A stretch of 43,790 nucleotides of DNA from Acidobacteriota bacterium (GTDB taxonomy: Bacteria > Acidobacteriota > Terriglobia > Acidiferrales > UBA7541), in contig QHYS01000044.1 in assembly GCA_003223325.1 (NCBI GenBank), forward strand, positions 7,314 through 51,103, given 5' to 3'. Below, in pieces: positions 3,863 through 27,057 of the stretch. The first letter of the stretch is position 1; each line of letters starts with the position of its first letter. The notes under the pieces were generated by a model. That model worked only from the letters and a program-made list of their open reading frames with translations, was not told the origin of the DNA and searched no databases. Made by a program: the position numbers and the translations under genes.

Positions 3863-4190
3863 CGTCCCAACTTTCACTCCTCAGGCTGCGGCAGGTACTT
3901 ACCGACTACGCTTCGTGATTTCAGTCTCAGCGGCCAGTGCAGCGACCTTGGGGTGGACGGCGACTTGGACGGACTCAAATGGCAACGCGCAGACGCCGAC
4001 GAACCTGTCCCTCGTCCAGAGCGGAACCGCTGCTCCGGCATTGACATTCACCACGAGCGCGGCGGGAAACTATTACGGTGATGCCACCATCGACGTGAAT
4101 AATGCGCGAGAGAACATCGTGATGAAGCTCACCTTCAGCGGCACGTCTTTTACGGCTAAAGTTTCGGCGACTGTGGGGAGGCTACAGTGA
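3850..4190 (+). pseudogene. 5'-truncated gene for a beta-rich, phage-structural-like protein
   Basis: The frame that ends at 4190 reads sensibly from about 3850 (TFTPQAAAGTYRLRFVISVS onward) to ATVGRLQ. It is rich in Ala, Thr, Gly and Ser, with alternating beta pattern such as GNYYGDATIDVNNAREN. The 5' part is replaced by the IS110 remnant, and no start codon with a ribosome site is apparent. The stop overlaps the next start as GTGA, so the two were translationally coupled. I do not recognise the family. Composition resembles small phage or tail-associated structural proteins, which is a guess. Confidence 0.5.
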
Positions 4191-7100
4191 GACGCCTACT
4201 TCTGCTCTTTGCACTTTTCTTTCTGCCCTGCGCGGCTCATGCCACCTGGGGCAGCGGGGGCAATTTTACTCAGGTTGTATTCAACAACTCCTGCGGCTCA
4301 GGAACAAGCTGCTCAGTCACCGTTGCGGCCCTGGGAGCAGGGCATCTTGTCTTCGGTGTTGCGCATATCCCGAACGGTTCTAACCAACTCCTTAGCGGCG
4401 TAACCGCAGCGGGCGAAACGTTCTCCACGATAAACGGCGGAGCCCAGCAGGGCTGCCCCGTAAACTGGGGCACCAACAATACCGGGCAAACCTTCGGATG
4501 CGGATATACGCTCAACTCCGTCGGCGGAGCCACCAGCGTTACCTTCAATTTCACCGCTTCTGTTACAGGCGCAAGCGTCGGTGTTTATGAGGCACCATAC
4601 ACAGCCCCGTTTATCTTTTTGGAGCGCAATAATTTTAATAGTCAGAACTCAGCCGCTTCCACATTCCCCGGCATAAATTTCTCTGGTAATGGTGCGGTCA
4701 CCTGGATTCAAAGTACCAATGCAGTTTGTTTTCAGTTGGCCAACGTTGCATCAGGTACGATTTCGGCGATTGATTCTTCCTATGTACTCGACAATCACAC
4801 AGGTCAGGTGGCCGACGCACACATCCTGAACTATTTCAATGATTTTAATTCGGTCGCCCCGACGTGGACCAACAGCGGCAGCGCTGCTTCGGTAACAGCT
4901 GCAGTCTGCTTCGGTGAAGACTACAATCCCGAGACTTTAACCGCAATTCCAGCGAGCACTCCAGGAGGATTGCAGGTTTCTTACGGCACGACGAATGGAC
5001 CGGCTCTGACGGTGATTTCTCCGGGATTATTCGAGTTGGTGTTTGAGGCTACTGACAACTGGGGTCTCGCGCAGTGGTATGACCTCGTGAACGACCCCAA
5101 TGCGAGCGTAAACATACTCGACAATTCCGGTGGCAACGGCCCGAACGATACCAGTACCGAAGCCGCTTTGTTCAACAGAACCTACTACGACTACTTGGAT
5201 GTAAAGCTATACGACCGCGCGGCGGGTAACGCTTTTTCTCTAGCCCCTAAGCAGTTGTCGCTCGTTGAATACAACGCTTCGCGCGTAGTGATCGAAACCA
5301 AATCCGAGCCTGTGGGGAATGCCGAGGCTGAGTTCAATAACCTGATCGGCACAACCCGATACTACATCTACCCGAATGGTCAGATTTATGTCCATCATGT
5401 TTCGACCGTTACGAACGCATTCACATTCACGACAGGCGCAATTTTCAGCGAAGTGACTCTGCCGGAGCCAGGCGTCACCATTACGAATCCTCCAGATTCC
5501 TCGGGATGGATTCGCGCATCTACAACGCAAAATCCTTACACGTCGGTCGCCAGCGCTGAGCCTTATCTATTCGCTTATTGGACTGGTACAACCTTTACCA
5601 AGGCCAGCGTCTTGATGGTACGCAGCCCCAACAATCTCTACGATGGAACACAAATACTTTTCACGCAGCCAAACGGTAGCGGTCCCTTTCTCCGTTGGGG
5701 CTGGCAAAACGGGGTCGGAAACATCGTTTTAGGAAGTGGCGGAACTATAGTCGAGGACTGGTTAATCCAACTGGGGACACAGGGCAGCACTGTACTTCCA
5801 AACCTCACTACCAGCGCTGTCTGCGATCCCATCGCTTTCGCCTACATCGCCAACCCGACTCCGCCCCTGCCAACCAGTCAGAATATCCTGACGCTGTCCA
5901 ATGAAGCAGTTGTGAATCAGGGCAAGACGATGCAGTTCACAGCTACGGACGCGGGTAGCTGGACTTGCCCGAGTTGCGCGGGGAGCATCAACTCAGCGAC
6001 CGGACTATATACCGCTCCGGCCAGCGTGACTGCGCAGCAGACTCAGGGCGGCTATCAGCTGCTCCCGAACAATCACATCTTCAACACACGGATCGACTCG
6101 CTGCCGCAGCATCCGATGAATTCCACATGGCAGTCTCTCATCAATGTCGGCGGTGGTCAGCCTTCGTTCAACGTCGTTGGCAGGCCGATCACCTACATCA
6201 CGAACGCCACGCCGACAAAGGCTATGACTTTCTTCTATACGACTGCCAACAACGGCAGCTATCAGATAGCCCCATTCCCAAATACCAAGCTGGAGGGCGG
6301 CTATTTCACAGCCATCTCGAACTCGGCAAATCCGGTCGATCATCACCTGTTAGAGATGAATACGGACAATGGGGTGCTGTCGGATTTCTACCAGTATTAT
6401 GCTTCGTGCGCCACTTCAGCAGCTTCGGTCACGAACAACGTAGCTACTTTAACCTGCACCACGAACCCGCAGTCCGCAGGCTTTTTAGTCGGTTCGACGG
6501 CTTGCGTGGGAGGATTTACCGGGGGAGACACCTACTTCAACGCCTGTACGACGCCCGTCACCATCACGGCGGTAACGCCTACATCTATTAGCTATGCCCT
6601 GGTCCACGCAAACGCTTCGGCCATCACGAACGGAAGCGCCACGCTCAACACAGCTAACAGCGGGTGTTCGACCGCAGGAACCTGTAACTCACAAGGCGGT
6701 CTAGCCTACACCTATTACGATTACAAACTGCCGAATAGTGGCGCTGGGGGTGGGGCTACGGGTGCCGCTGGAACAGAGGCGCAACCTCTGCAAATGCGCC
6801 TCGCTGAGTGGAACAATGCCGTGGCGAATAACGGGACTATCAATCATGCCTTGCGCGTGACGTTCGGTGTCGGGGTCGAGTGCTCCTGTCTGCTCTGGCC
6901 CGCTACTGCGTATGCACCGGACGGGGCCACTATTCCTTTCGGAGCACGGCTGCGCCTGAAACCCAGCTTCGACATCTCTGGTTATTCGGCCCCCGCTCAA
7001 ATCCTGCTCAAGCAGCTACAGCAGTACGGCATCATCAATGACGACGGAGGGAACGGCTACGACATCTCTGCCATAGAGAGCAATCACTGGCCTGCGAACT

Positions 7101-8263
7101 ACATCGCTGCGGCTAATGAGGTTGTGAATGCCGGACCTGTGTTCTCGCCGATTACGAACACCGTATGGAGCAGCAACGTGGCCACGATCACCGTGGCGAA
7201 CTCCTTGGCGGTCGGCAACAATGTCCTCATCAATGGCACTTCTGGCGGGACCTATGATGGCTGGCATACAGTCGCTTCTGCGAATGGGACCTCCTTCACG
7301 TTTAATCAAACTCATGCCGATGTAGGGTCAGCGTCAAATTCTGGGACTGTGCGGCTAGGCTTGTCTAACTTCATGGAATTTGTGGACGAATCGAGCCTCA
7401 TGGTCTCCTCGACTTCAGGGGTTACTACGAGCAATCGGGAATTGGTCACTTTCACGCGAACGTCTGACTCCGCAACCTCGACCGTGGATGTCGCCTTGCA
7501 AGGGGTAGCCGTGAACCTCACTTCGGATTACCTCAACATCATGGCTGGAACTCCTGCGCAGCAGTTGACCGCTCTCGTGAACATAGGCGGCGTGACTTGG
7601 ACTATGAATCCGTTGGTTGGCACTTTAACTTCTACCGGACTTTATACGGTTCCGTCTAGCGTGGCCTCACCTACCACGACCACGATCACGGCAACCAGCA
7701 CGGTAAATCCTGCGGTAAAGGCTCTACTGAGTGTTACCGTTTTCCCTGGCCCTGCCATCCGCATCCTCCCATCCAAGTCCACGAACTATGTGGACAGTTT
7801 TGGGAATATGTGGTGGGGAGGTTACGGCATCGGGACAAGCCAGGCCGTGCAGAGCGGGTGCTGCGCAGACAACGGCAGTTTTCCAGCGATCACGGATGCC
7901 TCCCTGTGGAACTCTCAGGTCGGTTCTTCGAGCGTAGCCAGCGCCGATACGCGAATCGATATGCTCGTTCCGAATGATGTGTATCAAGTTACGTATAGAT
8001 TTGGGACTAGGAATGTGTCTGGCTATGCGACTAACAAACTCGCTGTTCAGGGAAGTGTGTTCTTGACCCAAGACTTTGCTACAGCTTCGGGCGGGGCAAA
8101 CCAACCATATAGCGCAGTGGTTACGAATGTCACCGTCACCGACAACCACCTGAGATACATCATCTTTGGTGCCATGGGCGGATCGAATAACGAAGTGCAG
8201 CCTATTTCGTCTCTGAGTATTATCCCCGGAGCGGTGCGCTCTCGCGCAGGAGGATTACCGTGA
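4187..8263 (+). CDS. large secreted multidomain protein with Ig-like and malectin-like domains
   Basis: 1358 residues from a GTG start that overlaps the previous stop. Residues 1-20 form a signal peptide (MRRLLLLFALFFLPCAAHA, AHA cleavage). Residues ~20-245 and 245-565 are beta-rich and unrecognised. Residues ~570-610 form an Ig-like unit ending GSINSATGLYTAP. A conserved module follows, with LLPNNHIFNTRIDSLP (~625-640), INHALRVTFG, ECSCLLWPAT and QYGIINDDGGN (~945-955). It is interrupted at ~739-830 and ~978-1058. A second Ig-like unit (GTLTSTGLYTVP) and a malectin-like end (IRILPSKSTNYVDSFGNMW to the C-terminus) close the protein. From ~570 on it is paralogous to the minus-strand lipoprotein at 30829-32874. 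Likely an extracellular carbohydrate-binding or carbohydrate-active protein; enzymatic activity is unproven. Downstream coupling is again GTGA. Confidence 0.8.
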   Translation: MRRLLLLFALFFLPCAAHATWGSGGNFTQVVFNNSCGSGTSCSVTVAALGAGHLVFGVAHIPNGSNQLLSGVTAAGETFSTINGGAQQGCPVNWGTNNTGQTFGCGYTLNSVGGATSVTFNFTASVTGASVGVYEAPYTAPFIFLERNNFNSQNSAASTFPGINFSGNGAVTWIQSTNAVCFQLANVASGTISAIDSSYVLDNHTGQVADAHILNYFNDFNSVAPTWTNSGSAASVTAAVCFGEDYNPETLTAIPASTPGGLQVSYGTTNGPALTVISPGLFELVFEATDNWGLAQWYDLVNDPNASVNILDNSGGNGPNDTSTEAALFNRTYYDYLDVKLYDRAAGNAFSLAPKQLSLVEYNASRVVIETKSEPVGNAEAEFNNLIGTTRYYIYPNGQIYVHHVSTVTNAFTFTTGAIFSEVTLPEPGVTITNPPDSSGWIRASTTQNPYTSVASAEPYLFAYWTGTTFTKASVLMVRSPNNLYDGTQILFTQPNGSGPFLRWGWQNGVGNIVLGSGGTIVEDWLIQLGTQGSTVLPNLTTSAVCDPIAFAYIANPTPPLPTSQNILTLSNEAVVNQGKTMQFTATDAGSWTCPSCAGSINSATGLYTAPASVTAQQTQGGYQLLPNNHIFNTRIDSLPQHPMNSTWQSLINVGGGQPSFNVVGRPITYITNATPTKAMTFFYTTANNGSYQIAPFPNTKLEGGYFTAISNSANPVDHHLLEMNTDNGVLSDFYQYYASCATSAASVTNNVATLTCTTNPQSAGFLVGSTACVGGFTGGDTYFNACTTPVTITAVTPTSISYALVHANASAITNGSATLNTANSGCSTAGTCNSQGGLAYTYYDYKLPNSGAGGGATGAAGTEAQPLQMRLAEWNNAVANNGTINHALRVTFGVGVECSCLLWPATAYAPDGATIPFGARLRLKPSFDISGYSAPAQILLKQLQQYGIINDDGGNGYDISAIESNHWPANYIAAANEVVNAGPVFSPITNTVWSSNVATITVANSLAVGNNVLINGTSGGTYDGWHTVASANGTSFTFNQTHADVGSASNSGTVRLGLSNFMEFVDESSLMVSSTSGVTTSNRELVTFTRTSDSATSTVDVALQGVAVNLTSDYLNIMAGTPAQQLTALVNIGGVTWTMNPLVGTLTSTGLYTVPSSVASPTTTTITATSTVNPAVKALLSVTVFPGPAIRILPSKSTNYVDSFGNMWWGGYGIGTSQAVQSGCCADNGSFPAITDASLWNSQVGSSSVASADTRIDMLVPNDVYQVTYRFGTRNVSGYATNKLAVQGSVFLTQDFATASGGANQPYSAVVTNVTVTDNHLRYIIFGAMGGSNNEVQPISSLSIIPGAVRSRAGGLP

Positions 8264-13205: not shown

Positions 13206-14102
13206 ATGCTAAGTCCAATGACGAAGGAACTGGAGGAAAACGGCATCGTAATCATTCCTGACCTGCTAACGGCTAGTCAACTTCGGGGCATGCAGGTGAG
13301 CTTCAACGCAAGGTTGAGGCGCATGCGTTGGAACGACTTCGACGGCTACGAAAAAAATGACCGGTACCGTCACATGGTCCAGGACGTTTTGATCCTGGAT
13401 CAAGGCTTTATAGATGCCGCTCTGCACCCGGTTGTCGTGCCTGCGCTACGCGAGTATCTCGGCGACACGTTTGAGTTGGTCGAGGCCAAGGGTTGGAAGT
13501 CGCTGCCGACCAAACGCGACTTCCATGGCTGGCACGGGGATGCCTGGTACGATCAGGAACGGGTTAAAGACCGAATCCCGCGCGAAGTAAAGCTCGGGCT
13601 CTATCTTACGGACGTCAAGAGCGGAGGCTTTGTTTATGTCAAAGGAACCCATGGCCGACAACACCCGAAACCGCTGAGCCGGGACGAGGCGCGCGCTCTT
13701 CCCCGTGAGCGATTTGTTGAAGTATCCGGACCTGCAGGCCTAGCCTTCCTCTTTGACACTTCGGGATTTCACCGGCAAAACGTACCGATTTTAGAGCCGC
13801 GTCAGGCCGTTTTCTTTGCTTACCACGATCCAAAGCTCCCCCTTCAGCAGGAGGATCTTGAGTATTACCGCTATCACCCACTGCAGCTCAATGCTGCATT
13901 TCTGGGTAACCTGACGGAGGAAGAACGGCGCATCTTGGGGTTCGGCAACACGACCAATTTCCAGCCAGGCTATGAAAGAAGGCCGATGCATGCCTATTTC
14001 CAAGTGTTAGTCGGACGAAGTTATCACGCGAAGGTATTAGCGGGAGAATTTCATCAACGGGTGAAAACCAAACTCAAGCGTCTAACGGGACTAAGCAACT
14101 GA
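13206..14102 (+). CDS. phytanoyl-CoA dioxygenase (PhyH) family oxygenase
   Basis: 298 residues from the ATG at 13206. The AGGGGG ribosome site at 13189-13194 sits 11 bases upstream and rules against the GTG at 13194. The Fe(II)/2-oxoglutarate triad is visible: H110 and D112 in HGWHGDAWY, and H189 in SGFHRQNVP. VKLGLYLTDVKSGGFVYVKG forms the conserved strand before a typical loop. Family members hydroxylate small molecules or lipid and acyl groups using O2 and 2-oxoglutarate. It lies directly before the VOC, FkbH and ACP genes, so it could hydroxylate a carrier-bound or sugar-bound acyl unit. That role is inference. Confidence 0.85.
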   Translation: MLSPMTKELEENGIVIIPDLLTASQLRGMQVSFNARLRRMRWNDFDGYEKNDRYRHMVQDVLILDQGFIDAALHPVVVPALREYLGDTFELVEAKGWKSLPTKRDFHGWHGDAWYDQERVKDRIPREVKLGLYLTDVKSGGFVYVKGTHGRQHPKPLSRDEARALPRERFVEVSGPAGLAFLFDTSGFHRQNVPILEPRQAVFFAYHDPKLPLQQEDLEYYRYHPLQLNAAFLGNLTEEERRILGFGNTTNFQPGYERRPMHAYFQVLVGRSYHAKVLAGEFHQRVKTKLKRLTGLSN

Positions 14103-14107
14103 CAGGA

Positions 14108-14674
14108 ATGACCTCGAGTTTCAGCAGACCGGCTCTTTCTCAGTTACGGCAACGGCGGCAGGGTTCACCTACCAGGGCTGCTTTTCCCCCGCCGGCACCG
14201 CGGCCGGACAAAAAAAGAGAACTACAACGTAGGGCAAAAAGCGAGACCCAGCCAGGAGCAGGCGCGGTGCGGGAAGGTACTCTCCATCATGTTGGATTTG
14301 TAGTTGCCTCGATTGCCCAGATGGGCAAGGAGTTCGCGCAGTCGCTAGAGGCGGAGTGGAAGGGTGAGATCATTCACGATCCCTTGCAGCAGGCCAGAGT
14401 GACCTTCATGCGCTGTGGCCGCCCGGATAGTCCGGCAATGGAGTTACTTGAGCCCGAGACTGAGAAGTCACCACTGCAGAAGTTCTTGGTTAAGGGCGGC
14501 GGCTTGCATCACATCTGCTACGAAGTGGCATCACTTTATGAGCAGCTGGAATACTGCCGGTCCGTTGGCTCTTTGATCGTGAAGCAGCCGTTACCAGCCG
14601 CGGCATTCGGTGGACGGCGCATCGCGTGGGTATATACCAAACAAAGGCTTCTGGTGGAGTATCTGGAACGATGA
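14108..14674 (+). CDS. VOC-superfamily protein, methylmalonyl-CoA epimerase-like
   Basis: 188 residues. After ~55 polar, low-complexity residues comes one VOC module: LHHVGFVVASI (metal His H60 or H61), MELLEP, SPLQKFLVKGGGLHHICYEV (second His) and VEYLE (likely metal Glu). This order matches methylmalonyl-CoA epimerase and glyoxalase-like proteins. The N-terminal extension is unusual, and a GTG at 14268 (VREGTLHHVGF) is a possible true start. The stop overlaps the FkbH start as ATGA, which ties it to the acyl-carrier module. It may epimerise or rearrange a carrier-bound acyl group. The substrate is not known. Confidence 0.75.
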   Translation: MTSSFSRPALSQLRQRRQGSPTRAAFPPPAPRPDKKRELQRRAKSETQPGAGAVREGTLHHVGFVVASIAQMGKEFAQSLEAEWKGEIIHDPLQQARVTFMRCGRPDSPAMELLEPETEKSPLQKFLVKGGGLHHICYEVASLYEQLEYCRSVGSLIVKQPLPAAAFGGRRIAWVYTKQRLLVEYLER

Positions 14675-16593
14675 GCAGTGGAACCAGCGCAATGGCGCTC
14701 TCGCAATCAGGGCGACTAAACGTGGCGGAGTTGCGACAGGAAATCGATCGCCTGATGGAGCGCGGCGAGGCTACCCGCGCTTCGCACCTGCTTTCGGAAT
14801 TGTGGACGAAAGATAACACGGTTTCAACCGCTACGTTCATCGTATCGCGCTATGAACAGCTTCGGCCCAAGCTCAACCTGCTTCCCTACCGCATGGCTAT
14901 TCTCCGTTCGTTCACCGTTGAGCCGATTGTCCCATTGCTGCGGGCGGGCAGCTTCCACGCGAGGATAGATCTAACTGTCCACATGTCAGATTTCAATGCC
15001 CATGTTCAGGAGATTCTCGATCCTAAAAGCTCGCTTTATGGCTTCGCGCCCGATGTGGTCTTCTTGGCCGTTCAGACGCGTGATGTCGCGCCGGAGCTAT
15101 GGCGAGACTATGCGGACCTGAATTCAGAACAGGTGCAGAGCGCTGCGACCCGGGTCGTTGGGGATTTCCGCAGCTGGGTGTCGAACTTTCGTGCGCGCAG
15201 CAAGGCTCACCTGATCATTCACAACCTTGAGCAGCCGTCGGTGCCCAGTTGCGGCATTCTCGACGGCCAGGTTGCCAATGGGCAGGCAGTGGCAATCCAG
15301 CAAATCAATCGAAGGCTACAGGCACTCGCAGCTGAGCGGACTGGTGTTTATATCCTGGACTACGATTCGCTGGTAGCGCGGCACGGACGCGCGCACTGGC
15401 ATGACGAGCGGAAGTGGCTGACCGTACGCTTGCCGATGGCGGCTGAGAACCTGAATCATGTGGCGAAGGAGTGGCTCAAGTTCCTGCACCCGCTCACGGG
15501 GAAGGTCGCTAAGACCGTCGTTGTGGATCTCGACAATACTCTTTGGGGCGGAGTGATCGGCGAAGATGGCATGGCCGGCATTGAGTTGGGTACCGAATAC
15601 CCCGGGGTTTATTTCCACAACTTGCAGCGCGCCTTACTGGATCTTCATCAGCGCGGAATCCTGCTCGCGATCTGCAGCAAGAACAATCTTGATGACGCCC
15701 TGGAAGCTTTAAAAAACCATGCCGGAATGCTTCTCAAACCCAGCCATTTTGCGGCAATGCGCATCAACTGGACCGACAAAGCGGAGAACCTGCGGGCCAT
15801 CGCCGAGGAATTGAACATCGGTGTGGAGAGCCTGGCATTTCTCGACGACGATCCAACTGAGTGCCAGCAGGTCCGCAGCCAGGTGCCGGAAGTTTTCGTC
15901 ATCGATCTGCCAAGTGATCCTAGGGGGTTCGCTCAGGCGGTGCGCGAGAGTCCGGTGTTCGAGCGACTTGTGCTATCGGAGGAGGACCAGCGGCGTGGGG
16001 CCATATATCAGGCCCACCGCGATCGCCAAGAACTGGCCCAGACGGTAGCTTCGCGCGACGACTTTTACCGGTCTCTCCAGCAAGAAGCGGAAATTGCTCC
16101 TCTCACGAAAGCAAGTCTCACGCGGATTGCGCAACTAACGAGCAAAACAAACCAGTTCAATCTGACCAGCCGGCGGTACACAGAACAACAGATTTCGGAG
16201 ATGGTTTCGTCGCCGGGCTGCGACTGTTTCTCGATCCGCGTGCGTGATCGGTTCGGAGACAATGGCCTGGTGGGAGTGGCCATCACGCGGTTCGAGGGCC
16301 AGCGGTGTGAAATTGACACCTTGGTTCTAAGCTGCAGAGTGATAGGGCGCACCGTTGAAACGGCATTTCTGTCTTTTATCGCCGATCATGCACGCAAACT
16401 CGGTGCCCGCAGGCTCCGGGGCTGGTTCCTGCCGACCACAAAGAACGCCCCGGCAAGAGACTTTTATGCGAGCCACAGCTTCACCCCTCTGGAGCAAAAC
16501 GGCAAGGGCATCCTGTGGGAGCTTAATCTCAGCCAAGTGCCAGTGTCATGCCCTGAGTGGGTTAAGGTTACCGTACGGAACGGAGACAGATAA
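14671..16593 (+). CDS. FkbH-like HAD-family protein with C-terminal acyltransferase domain
   Basis: 640 residues from the ATG at 14671, overlapping the upstream stop (ATGA). An N-terminal ~270-residue region precedes the HAD domain, whose motif I is VVVDLDNTLWGGVIGEDG (D286, D288), with AICSKNN and FLDDDPTE as later motifs. From ~470 a GNAT-like domain contains TLVLSCRVIGR, whose Cys (C555) is the conserved thiol of FkbH-type proteins. Known FkbH proteins take a three-carbon unit from 1,3-bisphosphoglycerate, hold it on this Cys and pass it to an acyl carrier protein. The next gene is an ACP, three bases away, which supports the same reaction here. A glyceryl-ACP product is inferred from homology. 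Confidence 0.88.
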   Translation: MSSGTSAMALSQSGRLNVAELRQEIDRLMERGEATRASHLLSELWTKDNTVSTATFIVSRYEQLRPKLNLLPYRMAILRSFTVEPIVPLLRAGSFHARIDLTVHMSDFNAHVQEILDPKSSLYGFAPDVVFLAVQTRDVAPELWRDYADLNSEQVQSAATRVVGDFRSWVSNFRARSKAHLIIHNLEQPSVPSCGILDGQVANGQAVAIQQINRRLQALAAERTGVYILDYDSLVARHGRAHWHDERKWLTVRLPMAAENLNHVAKEWLKFLHPLTGKVAKTVVVDLDNTLWGGVIGEDGMAGIELGTEYPGVYFHNLQRALLDLHQRGILLAICSKNNLDDALEALKNHAGMLLKPSHFAAMRINWTDKAENLRAIAEELNIGVESLAFLDDDPTECQQVRSQVPEVFVIDLPSDPRGFAQAVRESPVFERLVLSEEDQRRGAIYQAHRDRQELAQTVASRDDFYRSLQQEAEIAPLTKASLTRIAQLTSKTNQFNLTSRRYTEQQISEMVSSPGCDCFSIRVRDRFGDNGLVGVAITRFEGQRCEIDTLVLSCRVIGRTVETAFLSFIADHARKLGARRLRGWFLPTTKNAPARDFYASHSFTPLEQNGKGILWELNLSQVPVSCPEWVKVTVRNGDR

Positions 16594-16596
16594 GGT

Positions 16597-16845
16597 ATGA
16601 CTTCGCCACTGTTCGAGCGCGTTCGCGGAATTGCTGAGAACGTTCTGAAACTTCCTGGCAGCCAGATCACTGCGCAATCCTCTCCCGAGACGATTGCATC
16701 GTGGGACTCCGTCCAGCACCTCAATCTGATCCTTGCGTTAGAGCAAGAGTTTGGATGCCAGTTCGAGCCCGAAGAGATCGATCAGATGAACAGCATCGAT
16801 CGAATCCACAGCGTTGTCCAAAACAAGCTCAACCACGGTTCCTAG
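16597..16845 (+). CDS. acyl carrier protein
   Basis: 82 residues, starting three bases after the FkbH gene. It has the four-helix carrier pattern with the phosphopantetheine site in WDSVQHLNLI (S38, the usual DSL reading DSV), followed by ALEQEFGCQFEPEEIDQM and the last helix. It needs a 4'-phosphopantetheinyl transferase encoded elsewhere. As a free-standing ACP next to FkbH, it most likely carries the three-carbon or acyl unit destined for the glycan rather than serving fatty acid synthesis. Confidence 0.9.
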   Translation: MTSPLFERVRGIAENVLKLPGSQITAQSSPETIASWDSVQHLNLILALEQEFGCQFEPEEIDQMNSIDRIHSVVQNKLNHGS

Positions 16846-16853
16846 TGCCTCTT

Positions 16854-17966
16854 ATGGCAATCTCCATTAAGTCTTATACAGAAGAATGGATTCCTGCCGT
16901 TAAGGCTTTCAACCAGCGCCTGGCTACAGGAGGCGTACCCAGCGAATTCCATTTCCCCGAAAAGGACGTCCCCAGTTGGCTGCCGAAACGCGACGGCCGC
17001 CGCATTTACCAAGAGTTTTACCTGGCGCTCGAGGGGCAGGAAGTTCGCGGCGCATTCATTTTGAAAACTCAAGACTTCTCAGTGCGCGGCAAAATCCAGG
17101 TGGTTGCTTTTTACCATTTGCCGATTTCAGAAGGAATAATTAACAAGCGGTACTCCAGCGTGGGCGTCCATATGCTTAGAAGTGCCACGAAAGCGGCCCC
17201 TTTACTGTTTTGCCTGGGCATGGGGGGCTTCGATCGCCCTCTGCCTCAAATGTTGAGGGCGATGGGCTGGAATCTGCATGCATTGCCCTTCTATTTCAGA
17301 GTCCTTCATCCGGCAAATTTCCTGCGCCAGATCGCGCCCTTGCGGCAGACACCCGGGAGACGTTTCCTGGCCGATTTGGCCGCACTTACCGGAACGGGTT
17401 GGATCGGGATCAACATCCTGCAGAGATTTCACGCTGCCCGACACGATCAGTTCACCAAAACTGAATTGGTGGGCAGGTTTGGAAACTGGGCCGATGAATT
17501 GTGGGAGCGGTGCCATTCCCATTACATGCTGATTGCTTGCCGGGACAGTACAAATCTCAACATCTTGTATCCGACGAACAAGAACTTCTTGTGCCTCAAA
17601 GTAACCCGCGACAAAGAGGTGCTGGGCTGCGTGGTAATGCTCGATACAAAGATGCAGAATAACAGATACTTTGGGTGTTTACGGGTTGGGGCGATAGCAG
17701 ACTGTCTCGCTTCTCCCGAGAATGCCGGTACTGTGATCCAAGCGGCGACTCGGTTTCTGGAGGATCGGGGGGTCGACCTGATTGTCTCGAATCAATCCCA
17801 TGTTGCCTGGACCGAAGCGTTGAAGTCGGCGGGATTTCTCAAGGGACCGTCAAACTTCATCGTTGCAACATCGAAGCCGCTCAGCCAATTGATTTTCCCT
17901 TTCGAGTCGAACCAAAACCAGCTGTTCTTTATGCGCGGGGACGGCGACGGCCCGGTAAACCTGTGA
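16854..17966 (+). CDS. GNAT/FemAB-like acyltransferase of FkbH-ACP cluster
   Basis: 370 residues from the ATG at 16854, eight bases after the ACP stop. The N-terminal half contains a GNAT-type strand set (EFYLALEGQEVRGAFILKTQ, then VVAFYHLPISEGII). The C-terminal half repeats the pattern (KEVLGCVVMLDT, DLIVSNQSHVAWTEALKSAG), giving the tandem-GNAT look of FemAB-like proteins. No signal peptide is present. Position after FkbH and ACP makes it the natural candidate to move the carrier-bound unit onto an amino sugar or other acceptor. The reaction is inferred from context. Confidence 0.6.
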   Translation: MAISIKSYTEEWIPAVKAFNQRLATGGVPSEFHFPEKDVPSWLPKRDGRRIYQEFYLALEGQEVRGAFILKTQDFSVRGKIQVVAFYHLPISEGIINKRYSSVGVHMLRSATKAAPLLFCLGMGGFDRPLPQMLRAMGWNLHALPFYFRVLHPANFLRQIAPLRQTPGRRFLADLAALTGTGWIGINILQRFHAARHDQFTKTELVGRFGNWADELWERCHSHYMLIACRDSTNLNILYPTNKNFLCLKVTRDKEVLGCVVMLDTKMQNNRYFGCLRVGAIADCLASPENAGTVIQAATRFLEDRGVDLIVSNQSHVAWTEALKSAGFLKGPSNFIVATSKPLSQLIFPFESNQNQLFFMRGDGDGPVNL

Positions 17967-17968
17967 AC

Positions 17969-18790
17969 ATGGAGCAGCCACCAAGCGAGTCTCGCATGAG
18001 TGCTCGAAGCATCGTGCACCTGATGTACCACGAAATCGAGTTGCCCGGCAGGCCCATGTGTCAGTCGGAGCTGGGCTACGTGAGGTACATCGTTTCGGAA
18101 GCAGATTTCCGCGCGCAGCTTCAGTGGCTGCAGAGCGCGGGATGGCGAGGGATGAGTGTCCCGGAAGCGCTCAAATATCCGGATGGGTTGGGAGTTGCGA
18201 TAACATTCGACGATGGCTGTGAAACCGATCTGCTAACCACAGCGCCCTTGTTCAAGGCGGCTGCGTTCAACGCGACCTTCTACATAACGGTCGGCTTCCT
18301 GGGGAAGCCCGGTTATCTTTCGACAGACGAACTTCGAAGCCTCAGTGATTGGGGTTTCGACATCGGCTGCCATTCCATGACTCACGCCTATCTTTCGGAC
18401 TTAGACCTTAAAGGCTTGCGGAGGGAGCTGATCGAACCAAAACTCCGTTTGGAACAGATAACGGGCCAGGCGGTGGAGCACTTCTCTTGTCCCGGGGGCC
18501 GGTGGGATCGTCGGGTCGCCGAACTGGCGCGTGAAGCGGGATACAAGTCGGTGGCCACTAGCCGGAACTTCGCAAATTCCATCCGCACCGATCCTTTCTC
18601 TTTGGGGCGCGTAGCCGTGATGCGAGATACTCCACTCAGTGTTTTTCAGCGAATCTGTCGGGGTGGCGGCTTATGGCAGCGCCAAGTAGCGGATCTGACC
18701 CGAGCAACAGCAAAAAAGCTCATGGGCAACACTGGGTATGACGCTCTACGCGGGCTGTTGCTGAGTCGGGGAAAAACAGCTAATGGCTGA
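17969..18790 (+). CDS. polysaccharide deacetylase (NodB domain, CE4-like)
   Basis: 273 residues from the ATG at 17969. A GTG at 17963 that overlaps the previous stop is the alternative. Motif 1 is ITFDDG (D81, D82), motif 2 is HSMTH (H135, H139) and motif 3 is SCPGGRWD. All expected metal ligands and the catalytic Asp are present, so it should be active on N-acetyl groups. There is no signal peptide, so it probably acts on a cytosolic or lipid-linked intermediate. It directly follows the acyltransferase. Deacetylation would free an amino group that the neighbouring enzyme could re-acylate; this link is inference. Confidence 0.88.
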   Translation: MEQPPSESRMSARSIVHLMYHEIELPGRPMCQSELGYVRYIVSEADFRAQLQWLQSAGWRGMSVPEALKYPDGLGVAITFDDGCETDLLTTAPLFKAAAFNATFYITVGFLGKPGYLSTDELRSLSDWGFDIGCHSMTHAYLSDLDLKGLRRELIEPKLRLEQITGQAVEHFSCPGGRWDRRVAELAREAGYKSVATSRNFANSIRTDPFSLGRVAVMRDTPLSVFQRICRGGGLWQRQVADLTRATAKKLMGNTGYDALRGLLLSRGKTANG

Positions 18791-21515: not shown

Positions 21516-22690
21516 TGGCCGGGGATCGACTACGGCCTGCGATTGGAGGAGCCAGCACAATCCCCGCAAATCCGATCCCAATCCTGCTAACAGTGAGGGA
21601 GCTTCACCACGGTGGGATCGAGCGGGACGTAACGAAGATTGCGATTCAGCTCGATCGTTCGCGATTTGAGCCGCACGTCGCCAGCTACCACGCCGAAGGG
21701 ATGAGATTCGAGGAGCTCAGCCGTGCGGGTGTTCCTGTCCTTCATCTGCATGTATCTTCTCTGAAGTCGCCAACTGCTCTGTGCGCGGCGATGCGGATGC
21801 GGCGGTATATCCGGGAGCATGCGATTCGCCTCGTACATGCCTGGGATCCGAGCGCCGTATTCGCGGTGCCGCTGGCGCGGAGCCTGCGCGTGCCGGTGGT
21901 TCTTTCGAGCCTGCTCGGCAGCCGAGATCTGCTCGACCAGCGTACTCGCCGCCAAGTGCGGTGGACGGACCGCATGGTGGATGCTGTAGTGGTCAACTGC
22001 GAGGCCATGCGCCGCCACATGATCGACGAACAAGTCCGGGATGAGCGAATCGAAGTCTGCTATAACGGCATCGACACCGCCGAGTTCTACCCAGCGCCGA
22101 CGCCTAAGCCCACTCCCGTCGCGGATGCTTCGCTTCTTATTGGAGCGGTCTGCGTGCTGCGCCCGGAAAAGGCTCTCGATTTGTTGCAGGAATCGTTTGC
22201 CCGCATCCGGCATCTACAGCCTGGCATGAAGTTGCTCATTGTGGGAAGCGGGCCGGAACTTCCGCGATTGCAGATCAACGGCCAACGCTTAGGAATCCAA
22301 AACGATTGCGTGTTCGAGCCCGCCACGTCACAGGTGCCTCAATATCTCCGCGCTCTCGATATTTTTGTGCTGTGTTCTCGTTCGGAGGCCTTTTCCAATA
22401 CACTGCTCGAAGCAATGGCTTGTGGCTGCTGCGCGGTCGGATCGCAAGTCGGGGGCACTCCGGAGCTGATCGGAAACGATGAACGCGGTCTGCTCTTCCG
22501 ACCGGGCGATGCCGGCGATCTCGCCGAAAAATTGACTACTCTCATCGGCAACGAACGACTCCGACGTGAATTTGGAACTCGTGCTGCGGACTTTGCGAAA
22601 ACAAGACTCAGTATCGAAATCGCAGCCGAGCGCATGGCGGAAATCTACGAAATGATGCTGCGGCGGAAAACAGCGTGGCTAAATCATTGA
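21512..22690 (+). CDS. glycosyltransferase family 4
   Basis: 392 residues from the ATG at 21512 (ATGA overlap). The N-terminal domain reads ILLTVRELHHGGIERDVTKI, a nucleotide-sugar-side signature close to many capsule GT4 enzymes. The C-terminal domain has IGAVCVLRPEKALDLLQESF, LLIVGSGPELPRLQ, VFEPATSQVPQYLRALDIFV and SRSEAFSNTLLEAMACGCCA, then VGGTPELIGNDERGLLF. All parts are present. It overlaps the following, broken epimerase gene by 16 bases. Confidence 0.9.
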   Translation: MMAGDRLRPAIGGASTIPANPIPILLTVRELHHGGIERDVTKIAIQLDRSRFEPHVASYHAEGMRFEELSRAGVPVLHLHVSSLKSPTALCAAMRMRRYIREHAIRLVHAWDPSAVFAVPLARSLRVPVVLSSLLGSRDLLDQRTRRQVRWTDRMVDAVVVNCEAMRRHMIDEQVRDERIEVCYNGIDTAEFYPAPTPKPTPVADASLLIGAVCVLRPEKALDLLQESFARIRHLQPGMKLLIVGSGPELPRLQINGQRLGIQNDCVFEPATSQVPQYLRALDIFVLCSRSEAFSNTLLEAMACGCCAVGSQVGGTPELIGNDERGLLFRPGDAGDLAEKLTTLIGNERLRREFGTRAADFAKTRLSIEIAAERMAEIYEMMLRRKTAWLNH

Positions 22691-23468
22691 ATGTACCAAT
22701 ACCTCTGGTTATCGTGGCAGGCGCCCGGCCTAATTTCTTGAAGGTCGCGCCCATGATGGACGTTCTTTCGCGCGATCCGGATTTTGCCCCTATCCTGGTT
22801 CACACCGGCCAGCACTATGACCACAACATGTCGGGACAGTTCTTTCAAGATCTCGGCCTGCCGGAGGCTCATTATTATCTTGAGGCCGGCTCTGGCAGCC
22901 ATGCACACAAACGGCCGACATCCGTGAGCGTCTCGGGATCGGCCGTGATCGTTTTGGATTGGTCACCATGCACCGGCCGGCCAACGTTGATAACGACCGG
23001 CAGCTCGCCGAGATTCTAGAGGCCCTTTCTGTGATCTCGAGCCATATCCCGCTGTATTGGCCAATGCATCCCAGAATCCTCGCCCGCACTGGAAAGGGCG
23101 CAATTCCACTTTCCGGCCAGATCCATATCGTGGAGCCCCTGGGCTATTTCGACTTCCTCTGCCTGCAGGCGAGCAGCGCCATGGTGCTGACCGATTCCGG
23201 CGGGATTCAGGAAGAGACCACCGTGCTGGGCGTTCCCTGCCTGACCCTGCGCGACAAGACTGAACGGCCGGCCACGATCGAGTACGGTACCAACCGGCTG
23301 GCCGGAACGCGCAAAGAGACCATTCTCGAAGCCTGGAACCAGAGCCTTGCCCATCCCAGAAAGGGGCAGATTCCGCCGTTGTGGGATGGAAAAGCCACCC
23401 TGCGATGTCATGCCGTGTTGCGGAAATTCCCTTTGTGCCAAAGTGCCGTTGAGTTACAGACCCAATGA
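22675..23468 (+). pseudogene. wecB: UDP-N-acetylglucosamine 2-epimerase, internally deleted and frameshifted
   Basis: The GTG at 22675 opens VIVAGARPNFLKVAPMMDVL and HTGQHYDHNMSGQFF, the N-terminal UDP-GlcNAc 2-epimerase signature, to GSGSHA at 22905. The sequence then continues in the next frame with TQTADIRERLG, RFGLVTMHRPANVDNDRQL, LTDSGGIQEETTVLGVPCLT and PPLWDGKA. About 110-130 family residues between GSGSHA and the MHRPANVD block are missing, including the central catalytic acids. A -1 frameshift falls at the same place. The product cannot be a functional epimerase, so UDP-ManNAc supply must come from elsewhere or is not needed. The frame still overlaps the next gene by ATGA. Confidence 0.9.
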
Positions 23469-24955: not shown

Positions 24956-26200
24956 ATGGATCAAGTCTTTGGGCGCAGCCTTCGTGAGCATTACTGGGCT
25001 GCGGGCCAGGTGTGGCGTCGCCTTGCTCTCTTGCGACTCCCCGTCAATCGCGCCTTTGCGCAAGTTGTGCGTACAGATCTTGGGCGCGCTCTGCTTGGCA
25101 CCATCCGTCCGATCACTGGCGAGACGAAGGAGCGGGCCCACGCTGCAGTGGATTGGATTCTGCGCGCTCAAGCGGCTGGCAGCGATGGCGGAGTATCTCT
25201 TGGGTATTTCCCTTGCGACACCGAGAATGGTTGGCGCCCCTCCTATCCCGAAACGACCGGTTACATCATCACCTCTTTGCTGGAGTTTGCCCGGCGGTAC
25301 CAAAATGCAACCGCAAGCGAGCAGGCGCTGCGAATGGCGAATTGGGAAATAGATGTTCAGATGCCTAGTGGGGCCGTCCAGGGCGGCCCGGTGTGTCCTC
25401 CCGAAAAACAGACGCCCACCGCATTCAATACAGGTATGGTTCTGGACGGATGGATCAGCGCCTATCAATTCAGCAAGGACGATCGCTTCCTCGAAGCAGC
25501 TGTGCGGGCTGCCGAATGGTTGGCTAGGGACCTGAACGAAGACGGCTATTTTCGAACTAATGGGCAGTTCGTTGAACCCGGGCGGATAAAAACCTACAAC
25601 GTCCTCTGTGCGTGGGCGTTGTATCGACTCGGGGAACTCGTCACGGGCAGCTGCTGGCAAACTGCAGCGATCCGCGCCGTGGAAGCGGCCCGTCGCCAAC
25701 AACGAGCGAACGGATGGTTTGCAAACAATTGCCTGACTTGCTCTGAGGCGCCCTTGCTTCACACGATCGGCTACACGCTGCAGGGTACGCTTGAAGTTGG
25801 CATCGCCGCAGGGCGCGCGGACTTCGTTGAGGCGTCGCAGCGGGGCGTGGATGCCCTTCTGCCGCACATAGACGCCGGTGGATTTGTGCCCGGCCGTTTC
25901 TTCTCGGACTGGAGCCCCGCGTGTTTCTCCTCTTGTCTCACGGGTGCGGCGCAGCTCGCTGTAGTCTGCTATCGTCTCTCCGAGCACCTAGGCGATCATC
26001 GCTACTGGCTCGCAGCGGAGCGCTTGCTGAATTATCTGAAGCCACTACAACTCCTCAATTCTCCCAACCCCGGGCTCAATGGTGCATTGCCCGGTTCATT
26101 CCCCATTTTCGGCGGATATATGACCGCGGGTTACCCAAATTGGGCTACCAAGTATTTTCTCGATGCGCTTCTGCAGCAGGATCGCCTCGCGGAGAAATGA
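24956..26200 (+). CDS. alpha/alpha-toroid (six-hairpin-like) protein of unknown activity
   Basis: 414 residues from the ATG at 24956; a TTG at 24926 in frame is the alternative. Repeating helix pairs alternate with glycine-rich turns: AHAAVDWILRAQAAGSDGGV, GWRPSYPETTGYIITSLLEF, ETTGYII and AFNTGMVLDGWISAYQF, KTYNVLCAWALYRLG, LLHTIGYTLQGTLEVGIAAG, and LTGAAQLAVVCYRLSEH. This is the (alpha/alpha) toroid pattern of glycoside hydrolases, C5-epimerases and prenyltransferases. The exact family is not assigned. It has no signal peptide. It overlaps an AAC(3)-like gene by ATGA, so the two probably act on the same glycan. Confidence 0.6.
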   Translation: MDQVFGRSLREHYWAAGQVWRRLALLRLPVNRAFAQVVRTDLGRALLGTIRPITGETKERAHAAVDWILRAQAAGSDGGVSLGYFPCDTENGWRPSYPETTGYIITSLLEFARRYQNATASEQALRMANWEIDVQMPSGAVQGGPVCPPEKQTPTAFNTGMVLDGWISAYQFSKDDRFLEAAVRAAEWLARDLNEDGYFRTNGQFVEPGRIKTYNVLCAWALYRLGELVTGSCWQTAAIRAVEAARRQQRANGWFANNCLTCSEAPLLHTIGYTLQGTLEVGIAAGRADFVEASQRGVDALLPHIDAGGFVPGRFFSDWSPACFSSCLTGAAQLAVVCYRLSEHLGDHRYWLAAERLLNYLKPLQLLNSPNPGLNGALPGSFPIFGGYMTAGYPNWATKYFLDALLQQDRLAEK

Positions 26201-27057
26201 TGCTTTCCTGGTTGCCATCGAACTTCAAGCGCAAGGCGAAGTCCCGTTGGAAAAGCCTGCGCATTGCCATTTCCAGAAAGAGCCGGGGCTTTTCGAAGCG
26301 ACAGCTCGTACAGATGCTGCAACAATTGGGAGTAAAGCCTGGTGACACGCTGTTGGTCCACAGTTCCCTCGACCAGTTCAGCGCATTCCTGGGTAAACCA
26401 ACAGACATCCTCCTAGCCCTTCAGGAAGCGATCGGCCCCAATGGCACGCTTCTGATGCCTACACTTCCCTTCACTGGCAGCGCCATAGAGTACATCCGCA
26501 CGCCGCGCGTCTTCGACGTCCGAAGAACTCCATCGCAGACGGGGCTGTTGAGCGAGTTGCTTCGCCGTTCCCCCGGGACAATTCGGAGTGTACACCCGAC
26601 ACACGCGGTCGCGGCCTGGGGCGCCCACGCCAGCGAAATGGTCCACGACCACCACGCGGCGTCCATGCCTTGCGGGCGACAGACTCCCTACGGGCGGCTG
26701 CTCAATCATGCGGGCAAGCTTCTGTTTCTAGGCGCAGACATTAGCGCGATGACCTTCTTTCACACCGTGGAGGAGATCCTCGAGCCTCTGATGCCGTTCT
26801 CTCCCTTTACCAGGGAAGTATTTTCACTGGAAAGCCGCGATGGGCAGGGAAACGCGATGATCACGCAAACGCGATTGTTCGAGCCGAAGTACTCCCAGTG
26901 CCGCAACCTCGAGAGGCTTGTCCGGGAACTGAAGTGCCGAGGGTGGTGGTTCGAGGCACGCCGGGGAGGGCTAAAGGCGATTCTCGTGAACGCCGATCAA
27001 GTTTTGGACGTATGCTCAGCATTAGGTAAGCGAGGGATTTTCTGTTATGACGTCTAG
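26197..27057 (+). CDS. AAC(3)-family N-acetyltransferase
   Basis: 286 residues from the ATG at 26197, overlapping the previous stop. It shows the Antibiotic_NAT pattern: GVKPGDTLLVHSSLDQFSAF, LLMPTLPFTG, RSVHPTHAVAAWG, GADISAMTFFHTVEE. The HPTHAVAAWG and FHTVEE histidines and acids match the acetyl-CoA and amine site of the aminoglycoside 3-N-acetyltransferase fold. In glycan clusters such enzymes acetylate amino sugars, so this is unlikely to be a resistance gene. No promoter is seen, and transcription is probably shared with the upstream genes. Confidence 0.85.
   Translation: MMLSWLPSNFKRKAKSRWKSLRIAISRKSRGFSKRQLVQMLQQLGVKPGDTLLVHSSLDQFSAFLGKPTDILLALQEAIGPNGTLLMPTLPFTGSAIEYIRTPRVFDVRRTPSQTGLLSELLRRSPGTIRSVHPTHAVAAWGAHASEMVHDHHAASMPCGRQTPYGRLLNHAGKLLFLGADISAMTFFHTVEEILEPLMPFSPFTREVFSLESRDGQGNAMITQTRLFEPKYSQCRNLERLVRELKCRGWWFEARRGGLKAILVNADQVLDVCSALGKRGIFCYDV

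Follow-up and report, generated by a model that had tools for sequence, protein, structure and literature searches.

The bacterial contig QHYS01000044.1, from a member of the Acidobacteriota, carries within the 43,790-nucleotide stretch that we analysed (hereafter the window) a compact six-gene cassette that we propose, with a probability of roughly 0.55, to be a module for the carrier-protein-dependent N-glycerylation of a cell-surface glycan. The cassette encodes a PhyH-type dioxygenase (PhyH), a VOC metalloprotein (VOC), an FkbH protein, a stand-alone acyl carrier protein (ACP), an acyltransferase that we call AT, and a NodB-type polysaccharide deacetylase (NodB). In our proposed mechanism, FkbH would take 1,3-bisphosphoglycerate, its HAD domain would remove the phosphate, and the glyceryl group would pass via Cys555 to the phosphopantetheine on Ser38 of ACP, following the known chemistry of the family. 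VOC, in the half or so of systems that encode it, would probably epimerise C2 of the glyceryl thioester. NodB would act in the cytosol on a nucleotide- or lipid-linked intermediate, stripping N-acetyl from an amino sugar in it, and AT would then move glyceryl onto the freed amine, yielding an N-glyceryl (2,3-dihydroxypropanamido) sugar. The glycosyltransferases and flippase of the cluster would complete and export the glycan, with PhyH acting as an accessory oxygenase of this lineage.

The six genes lie head to tail on the plus strand, with joints of at most 8 bp (from 5' to 3': 5 bp, a 4-bp ATGA overlap between VOC and FkbH, 3 bp, 8 bp and 2 bp). Coordinates and profile matches confirm the families and positions assigned in the original prediction, which had been made from the DNA alone. 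It had also described most of the joints as ATGA overlaps or gaps under 10 bases; the tight packing holds, but only the VOC/FkbH joint is a true ATGA overlap. FkbH scores about twice the curated cut-off of TIGR01686 (292.8 against 146.65 bits) and matches 3slr_A with 147 bits. The catalytic residues named at the outset, D286 and D288 of the HAD DxD motif and C555 in FkbH, and S38 in ACP, fall exactly where they had been placed and are kept in at least 93% of 61 FkbH and 38 ACP sequences, respectively; S38 sits in a conserved W36-D37-S38 motif. FkbH proteins have been described as glyceryl loaders that use 1,3-bisphosphoglycerate in polyketide synthase (PKS) and nonribosomal peptide synthetase (NRPS) lines (PMC7489565; PMC8949500). 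As the window's FkbH shares the residues of these proteins and is followed 3 bp on by a cognate ACP, the likely intermediate in this cassette is, by analogy, glyceryl-S-ACP.

The acyltransferase that would use this intermediate has no match in Pfam or NCBIfam, and a PDB sequence search with its profile returned nothing useful. A structure model built from 15 orthologues (pLDDT 87) adopts a tandem-GNAT fold whose best solved matches are N-myristoyltransferases (NMTs; VIA Z 19.6, 309 residues aligned, rmsd 4.7, about 8% identity). In this comparison the two GNAT domains of the model take the NMT arrangement, and the aligned range stops at the NMT C-terminus. The GNAT-type assignment of the original prediction is thereby upheld and refined to a modelled tandem GNAT closest to NMT. 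Human NMT1 uses the carboxylate of its C-terminal residue, Gln496, as catalytic base, and NMTs acylate amines (PMC7048800). All 19 of 19 AT relatives, including the one in the distant locus L073, share an R-x-D-G-D-G motif followed by a C-terminus in the same register, mostly -N[LF], and the C-terminal carboxylate of AT may likewise serve as catalytic base. Since the modelled fold resembles an amine acyltransferase, it favours N-acylation and an amide product. AT differs from the eukaryotic enzymes in being bacterial, and we would expect it to use a short hydroxyacyl-ACP donor and a sugar acceptor. Its presumed partner NodB carries the motifs TFDDG (residues 79-83) and HSMTH (135-139, the HxxxH metal motif). 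Motifs and hydropathy reveal no evident signal peptide or membrane segment in NodB, because of which we place its predicted deacetylation of a sugar intermediate in the cytosol; by hydropathy, none of the six cassette proteins has a membrane segment.

Across a survey of about 70 FkbH loci, close relatives of the window's FkbH (48-69% identity) were found at some 22 further loci, almost all of them in metagenome-assembled genomes of Acidobacteriota. ACP directly follows FkbH in every one of them, an adjacency that extends to most distant loci, and AT comes next in 17 of the 21 close-relative loci testable by contig extent. VOC directly precedes FkbH in about half of the close relatives, and a NodB 52-57% identical to that of the window lies within 10 kb of FkbH in ten of these loci (about half), directly following AT in the nearest (L055) as it does in the window. 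AT, FkbH, VOC and NodB come together again in L073. FkbH-ACP-AT is thus a tight module that recurs in some 20 further genomes, and VOC and NodB often accompany it without being fixed members; the window's own genome has a single FkbH copy. The expectation that the gene families of the cassette travel together is therefore borne out for FkbH, ACP and AT, holds in part for VOC (adjacent in about half) and for NodB (usually several kb off), and fails for PhyH, which accompanies FkbH within one genus only.

To set these associations against chance, we located Polysacc_deac_1 and Glyoxalase_4 matches genome-wide in a control sample of 28 other genomes with 37 FkbH loci, a few of them from the close group. 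Of these 37 loci, 7 have NodB within 2 kb of FkbH (0.19 expected), 8 have VOC that close (0.18 expected) and four have both, with Poisson probabilities of 1e-9 for NodB and 3e-11 for VOC that overstate independence. Reading these cases on the tree leaves about three separate groups for NodB (L005-L009, L021 and L024) and about six for VOC.

The pairing of FkbH with a deacetylase and a soluble acyltransferase also recurs with other acyltransferase families. Terriglobia loci L066-L069 have the order hexapeptide acyltransferase-FkbH-ACP-(VOC)-NodB-glycosyltransferase, and FkbH stands with a GNAT and NodB in L048, L052, L053, L135 and L138, the first four with NeuB and cytidylyltransferase genes around them. 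The route originally envisaged, in which the deacetylase exposes an amine and AT transfers the ACP-bound C3 unit, is strengthened by this recurrence (hexapeptide in Terriglobia, GNAT in NeuB clusters), by synteny, by the NodB and VOC adjacency statistics and by the NMT-like fold of AT; the glyceryl product itself is a predicted one. AT may or may not share an ancestor with the GNAT that neighbours ACP in NeuB clusters: the two have similar short motifs at their C-termini, but hhalign found no significant match between them (probability 1.4% and 7.8%). A model of the NeuB-cluster family was too poor for structure search (pLDDT 61), and a search of 199 genomes for that family found nothing. FkbH lies inside NeuB-containing (nonulosonic acid) clusters in L048, L052, L053, L129, L134, L135, L137 and L086, several with GNAT and NodB, and their gene content suggests that these clusters make N-glyceryl nonulosonic acids. 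A further relative of AT (23-25% identical) occurs at 8833-10011 in L119 and L120, two Azospirillum plasmids, within exopolysaccharide clusters that include a polysaccharide deacetylase. The stretch shown of these plasmids has no FkbH, and the small gene between the AT relative and the deacetylase does not resemble an ACP.

A second configuration of FkbH bears on whether the product is an amide or an ester. In an even sample of 289 genomes of Alphaproteobacteria, the class to which the Oceanicella locus L060 belongs, 27 have FkbH; many of the regions that we read are FkbH-ACP-MBOAT, some with VOC. Such alphaproteobacterial cassettes occur at L122, L123, L125, L126, L128, L130, L131, L133 and L136 from this sample and also at L084, several with VOC and a methyltransferase, and a Rhodobacteraceae plasmid has ACP-FkbH-MBOAT-hypothetical-VOC-acyltransferase adjoining a sulfotransferase and ATP sulfurylase. 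Dlt-type D-alanylation and alginate O-acetylation are MBOAT systems that transfer a small acyl group to a surface polymer, carrier-protein-bound in Dlt. The FkbH-ACP-MBOAT cassettes look parallel to these, as if built for the O-glycerylation of surface polymers; the window differs in having a soluble acyltransferase with a deacetylase as its partner, and a home-made MBOAT profile finds no MBOAT within 5 kb of its FkbH. Beside the same FkbH, NodB and MBOAT occur together once, NodB alone 17 times, MBOAT alone 14 times and neither 23 times (Fisher p 0.012), and a midpoint-rooted FkbH tree largely separates the loci with NodB and a soluble acyltransferase from those with MBOAT. Because a deacetylase is needed only when the acyl group goes onto nitrogen, this split is the expected look of an N-branch and an O-branch. 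The existence of FkbH-ACP-MBOAT cassettes, together with a NodB several kb off in many relatives, also lends something to the idea that the window's glyceryl-ACP donor delivers glyceryl to a glycan hydroxyl as an O-ester, with NodB serving an unrelated maturation step. We judge this unlikely, given the amine-acyltransferase fold of AT, the lack of a nearby MBOAT and the enrichment of NodB beside FkbH. The original choice between N- and O-acylation of a sugar thus narrows towards N for the window on the strength of the NMT-like AT, with O-acylation looking like the separate FkbH-MBOAT branch.

Several observations weigh against N-glycerylation as the function of the cassette. In many close relatives NodB lies several kb away and not next to the module, and some loci have none in the part that was read. 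Both the adjacency counts, in which five NodB cases belong to one Terriglobia clade, and the NodB/MBOAT table ignore shared ancestry. Finally, the extreme C-terminal end of the AT model has low confidence (pLDDT about 50).

The identity of the transferred unit is a related question, on which VOC and PhyH bear. VOC scores 47.9 bits against the methylmalonyl-CoA epimerase equivalog TIGR03081, whose cut-off is 114.95, so that it resembles this family without being a member. H61, Q94, H135 and E184, kept in at least 93% of 19 sequences, are, by our alignments, presumably the metal-ligand positions of methylmalonyl-CoA epimerase. VOC, present in about half of the systems, may epimerise the glyceryl thioester, a role that we offer as a guess because its score falls so far below the TIGR03081 cut-off. 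PhyH has an intact HxD...H facial triad (H110-G-D112 and H189), and a PDB sequence search with it returned nothing useful; it stands beside FkbH solely in the same-genus copy L033/L056, and is an accessory, lineage-specific oxygenase outside the module. An intact PhyH triad, and methyltransferase genes beside FkbH and VOC in L083, L133, L136 and L078, would fit a carrier-bound unit that is a glyceryl derivative (oxidised by PhyH, methylated as in these related loci, or of lactyl type) and is transferred in the same way. We regard such a derivative as rather unlikely, since PhyH does not travel with the module and a Pfam scan finds no methyltransferase or dehydrogenase inside the window's cassette.

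The surroundings of the cassette are those of a glycan cluster. Profile scans of the window's proteins identify GT4 glycosyltransferases, an AAC(3)-type N-acetyltransferase, a flippase and further glycan genes as neighbours. The scanned proteins include no PKS, as originally noted, and no NRPS either. The cassette shares with the FkbH/ACP glyceryl-loading pairs of FK520 methoxymalonyl-ACP, tetronate (Mad7/Mad8) and vioprolide (FkbH domain) biosynthesis an FkbH above the family cut-off, the DxD and Cys residues, and an adjoining cognate stand-alone ACP. It differs in having no PKS/NRPS, FabH-like tetronate enzyme or methoxymalonyl dehydrogenases, and in having AT and NodB downstream within a glycan cluster. 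The FkbH proteins characterised so far come from PKS and NRPS lines, and AT is closest in fold to enzymes that acylate the N-termini of proteins; one might thus ask whether the product of the cassette is a small secondary metabolite, or its target a peptide or protein amine, instead of a glycan. We consider this very unlikely: the scanned flanks hold no PKS/NRPS gene, and those of relatives hold sulfotransferases, UDP-sugar dehydrogenase, NeuB, flippases and glycosyltransferases. A PKS/NRPS module adjoining FkbH does appear in the Methylosinus control locus L085.

Taking the two configurations together, we tentatively propose, at somewhat less than even odds, that bacterial surface glycans receive glyceryl from FkbH-ACP as a general donor, recruited outside polyketide synthesis. 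An N-branch (NodB with an NMT-like, GNAT or hexapeptide acyltransferase) would replace N-acetyl with N-glyceryl, an O-branch would use MBOAT, and a dedicated VOC epimerase would set the configuration. In gellan, L-glyceryl substitution is an O-ester on glucose of a bacterial exopolysaccharide. The N-glycerylation that we propose for the window would resemble gellan in decorating a bacterial exopolysaccharide with glycerate and differ from its O-ester linkage; the open-access literature searched held nothing usable on the genes for the gellan glyceryl donor. Neisseria meningitidis makes a glyceramido sugar (GATDH) via PglB2, an ATP-grasp/phosphoglycosyltransferase (PMC11130364, PMC6959607). That pathway likewise gives a bacterial N-glyceryl amino sugar in which another acyl group takes the place of acetyl, but it involves no FkbH, ACP, VOC or NodB, and none of the window proteins scanned has an ATP-grasp Pfam match. 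If our proposal is true, the FkbH-ACP route would be a second, unrelated route to an N-glyceryl sugar beside PglB2. Carrier-protein chemistry of PKS and NRPS lines would then also decorate surface glycans, starting from glycolytic 1,3-bisphosphoglycerate, and there would be a genetic signature for glyceryl-decorated glycans, a modification with little-known enzymes. The proposal also predicts what is done by the FkbH-ACP-MBOAT cassettes that recur in Alphaproteobacteria, by the VOC proteins that neighbour FkbH and by a tandem-GNAT family that Pfam does not model. The underlying chemistry is known from polyketide and peptide pathways; we did not find its use on glycans through an FkbH-ACP pair in the open-access literature, though it may have been described earlier elsewhere. 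We found no open-access paper tying FkbH to polysaccharide or lipopolysaccharide biosynthesis and, judged by titles, none tying it to MBOAT outside natural products.

Table 1. Genes of the cassette, in window coordinates, with the matches that identify them.
Gene product	Position	Strand	Basis
PhyH-type Fe(II)/2-oxoglutarate dioxygenase	13206-14102	+	PF05721, 38.9 bits
VOC metalloprotein, methylmalonyl-CoA-epimerase-like	14108-14674	+	PF13669, 55.9 bits
FkbH (FkbH_N, HAD-IIIC and C-terminal domain)	14671-16593	+	TIGR01686, 292.8 bits; PF21211
Stand-alone ACP	16597-16845	+	PF00550, 24.8 bits; Ser38 phosphopantetheine site
AT, tandem-GNAT acyltransferase, ending -RGDGDGPVNL	16854-17966	+	Structure model; no Pfam/NCBIfam match
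NodB-type polysaccharide deacetylase	17969-18790	+	PF01522, 73.8 bits

Within up to 10 kb on either side of FkbH, the related acidobacterial clusters L037-L047 bring together NodB, several sulfotransferases, ATP sulfurylase/APS kinase, a CysQ-like phosphatase, a UDP-sugar dehydrogenase and a heparinase II/III-like lyase; an exosortase-type amidotransferase is also found in the surroundings of many close relatives. These gene sets make L037-L047 candidate producers of a sulfated, uronic-acid-containing, glycosaminoglycan-like polymer. We considered sulfation as part of the window's product and dropped it: the relatives are rich in sulfotransferases, but the window's own genome has no Sulfotransfer_3 match, because of which we do not tie glyceryl decoration to sulfation. 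Elsewhere in the window, a 1358-residue open frame at 4187-8263, central in the glycan cluster, matches no Pfam family. A UDP-GlcNAc 2-epimerase (PF02350) at 22675-23468 is split over two open reading frames that cover only profile positions 3-50 and 185-346, and by this coverage it is an internally deleted or decayed copy. Within the same glycan cluster, an aminoglycoside 3-N-acetyltransferase-family protein at 25921-27057 (PF02522, 164.5 bits) may be a second sugar-amine acyltransferase.

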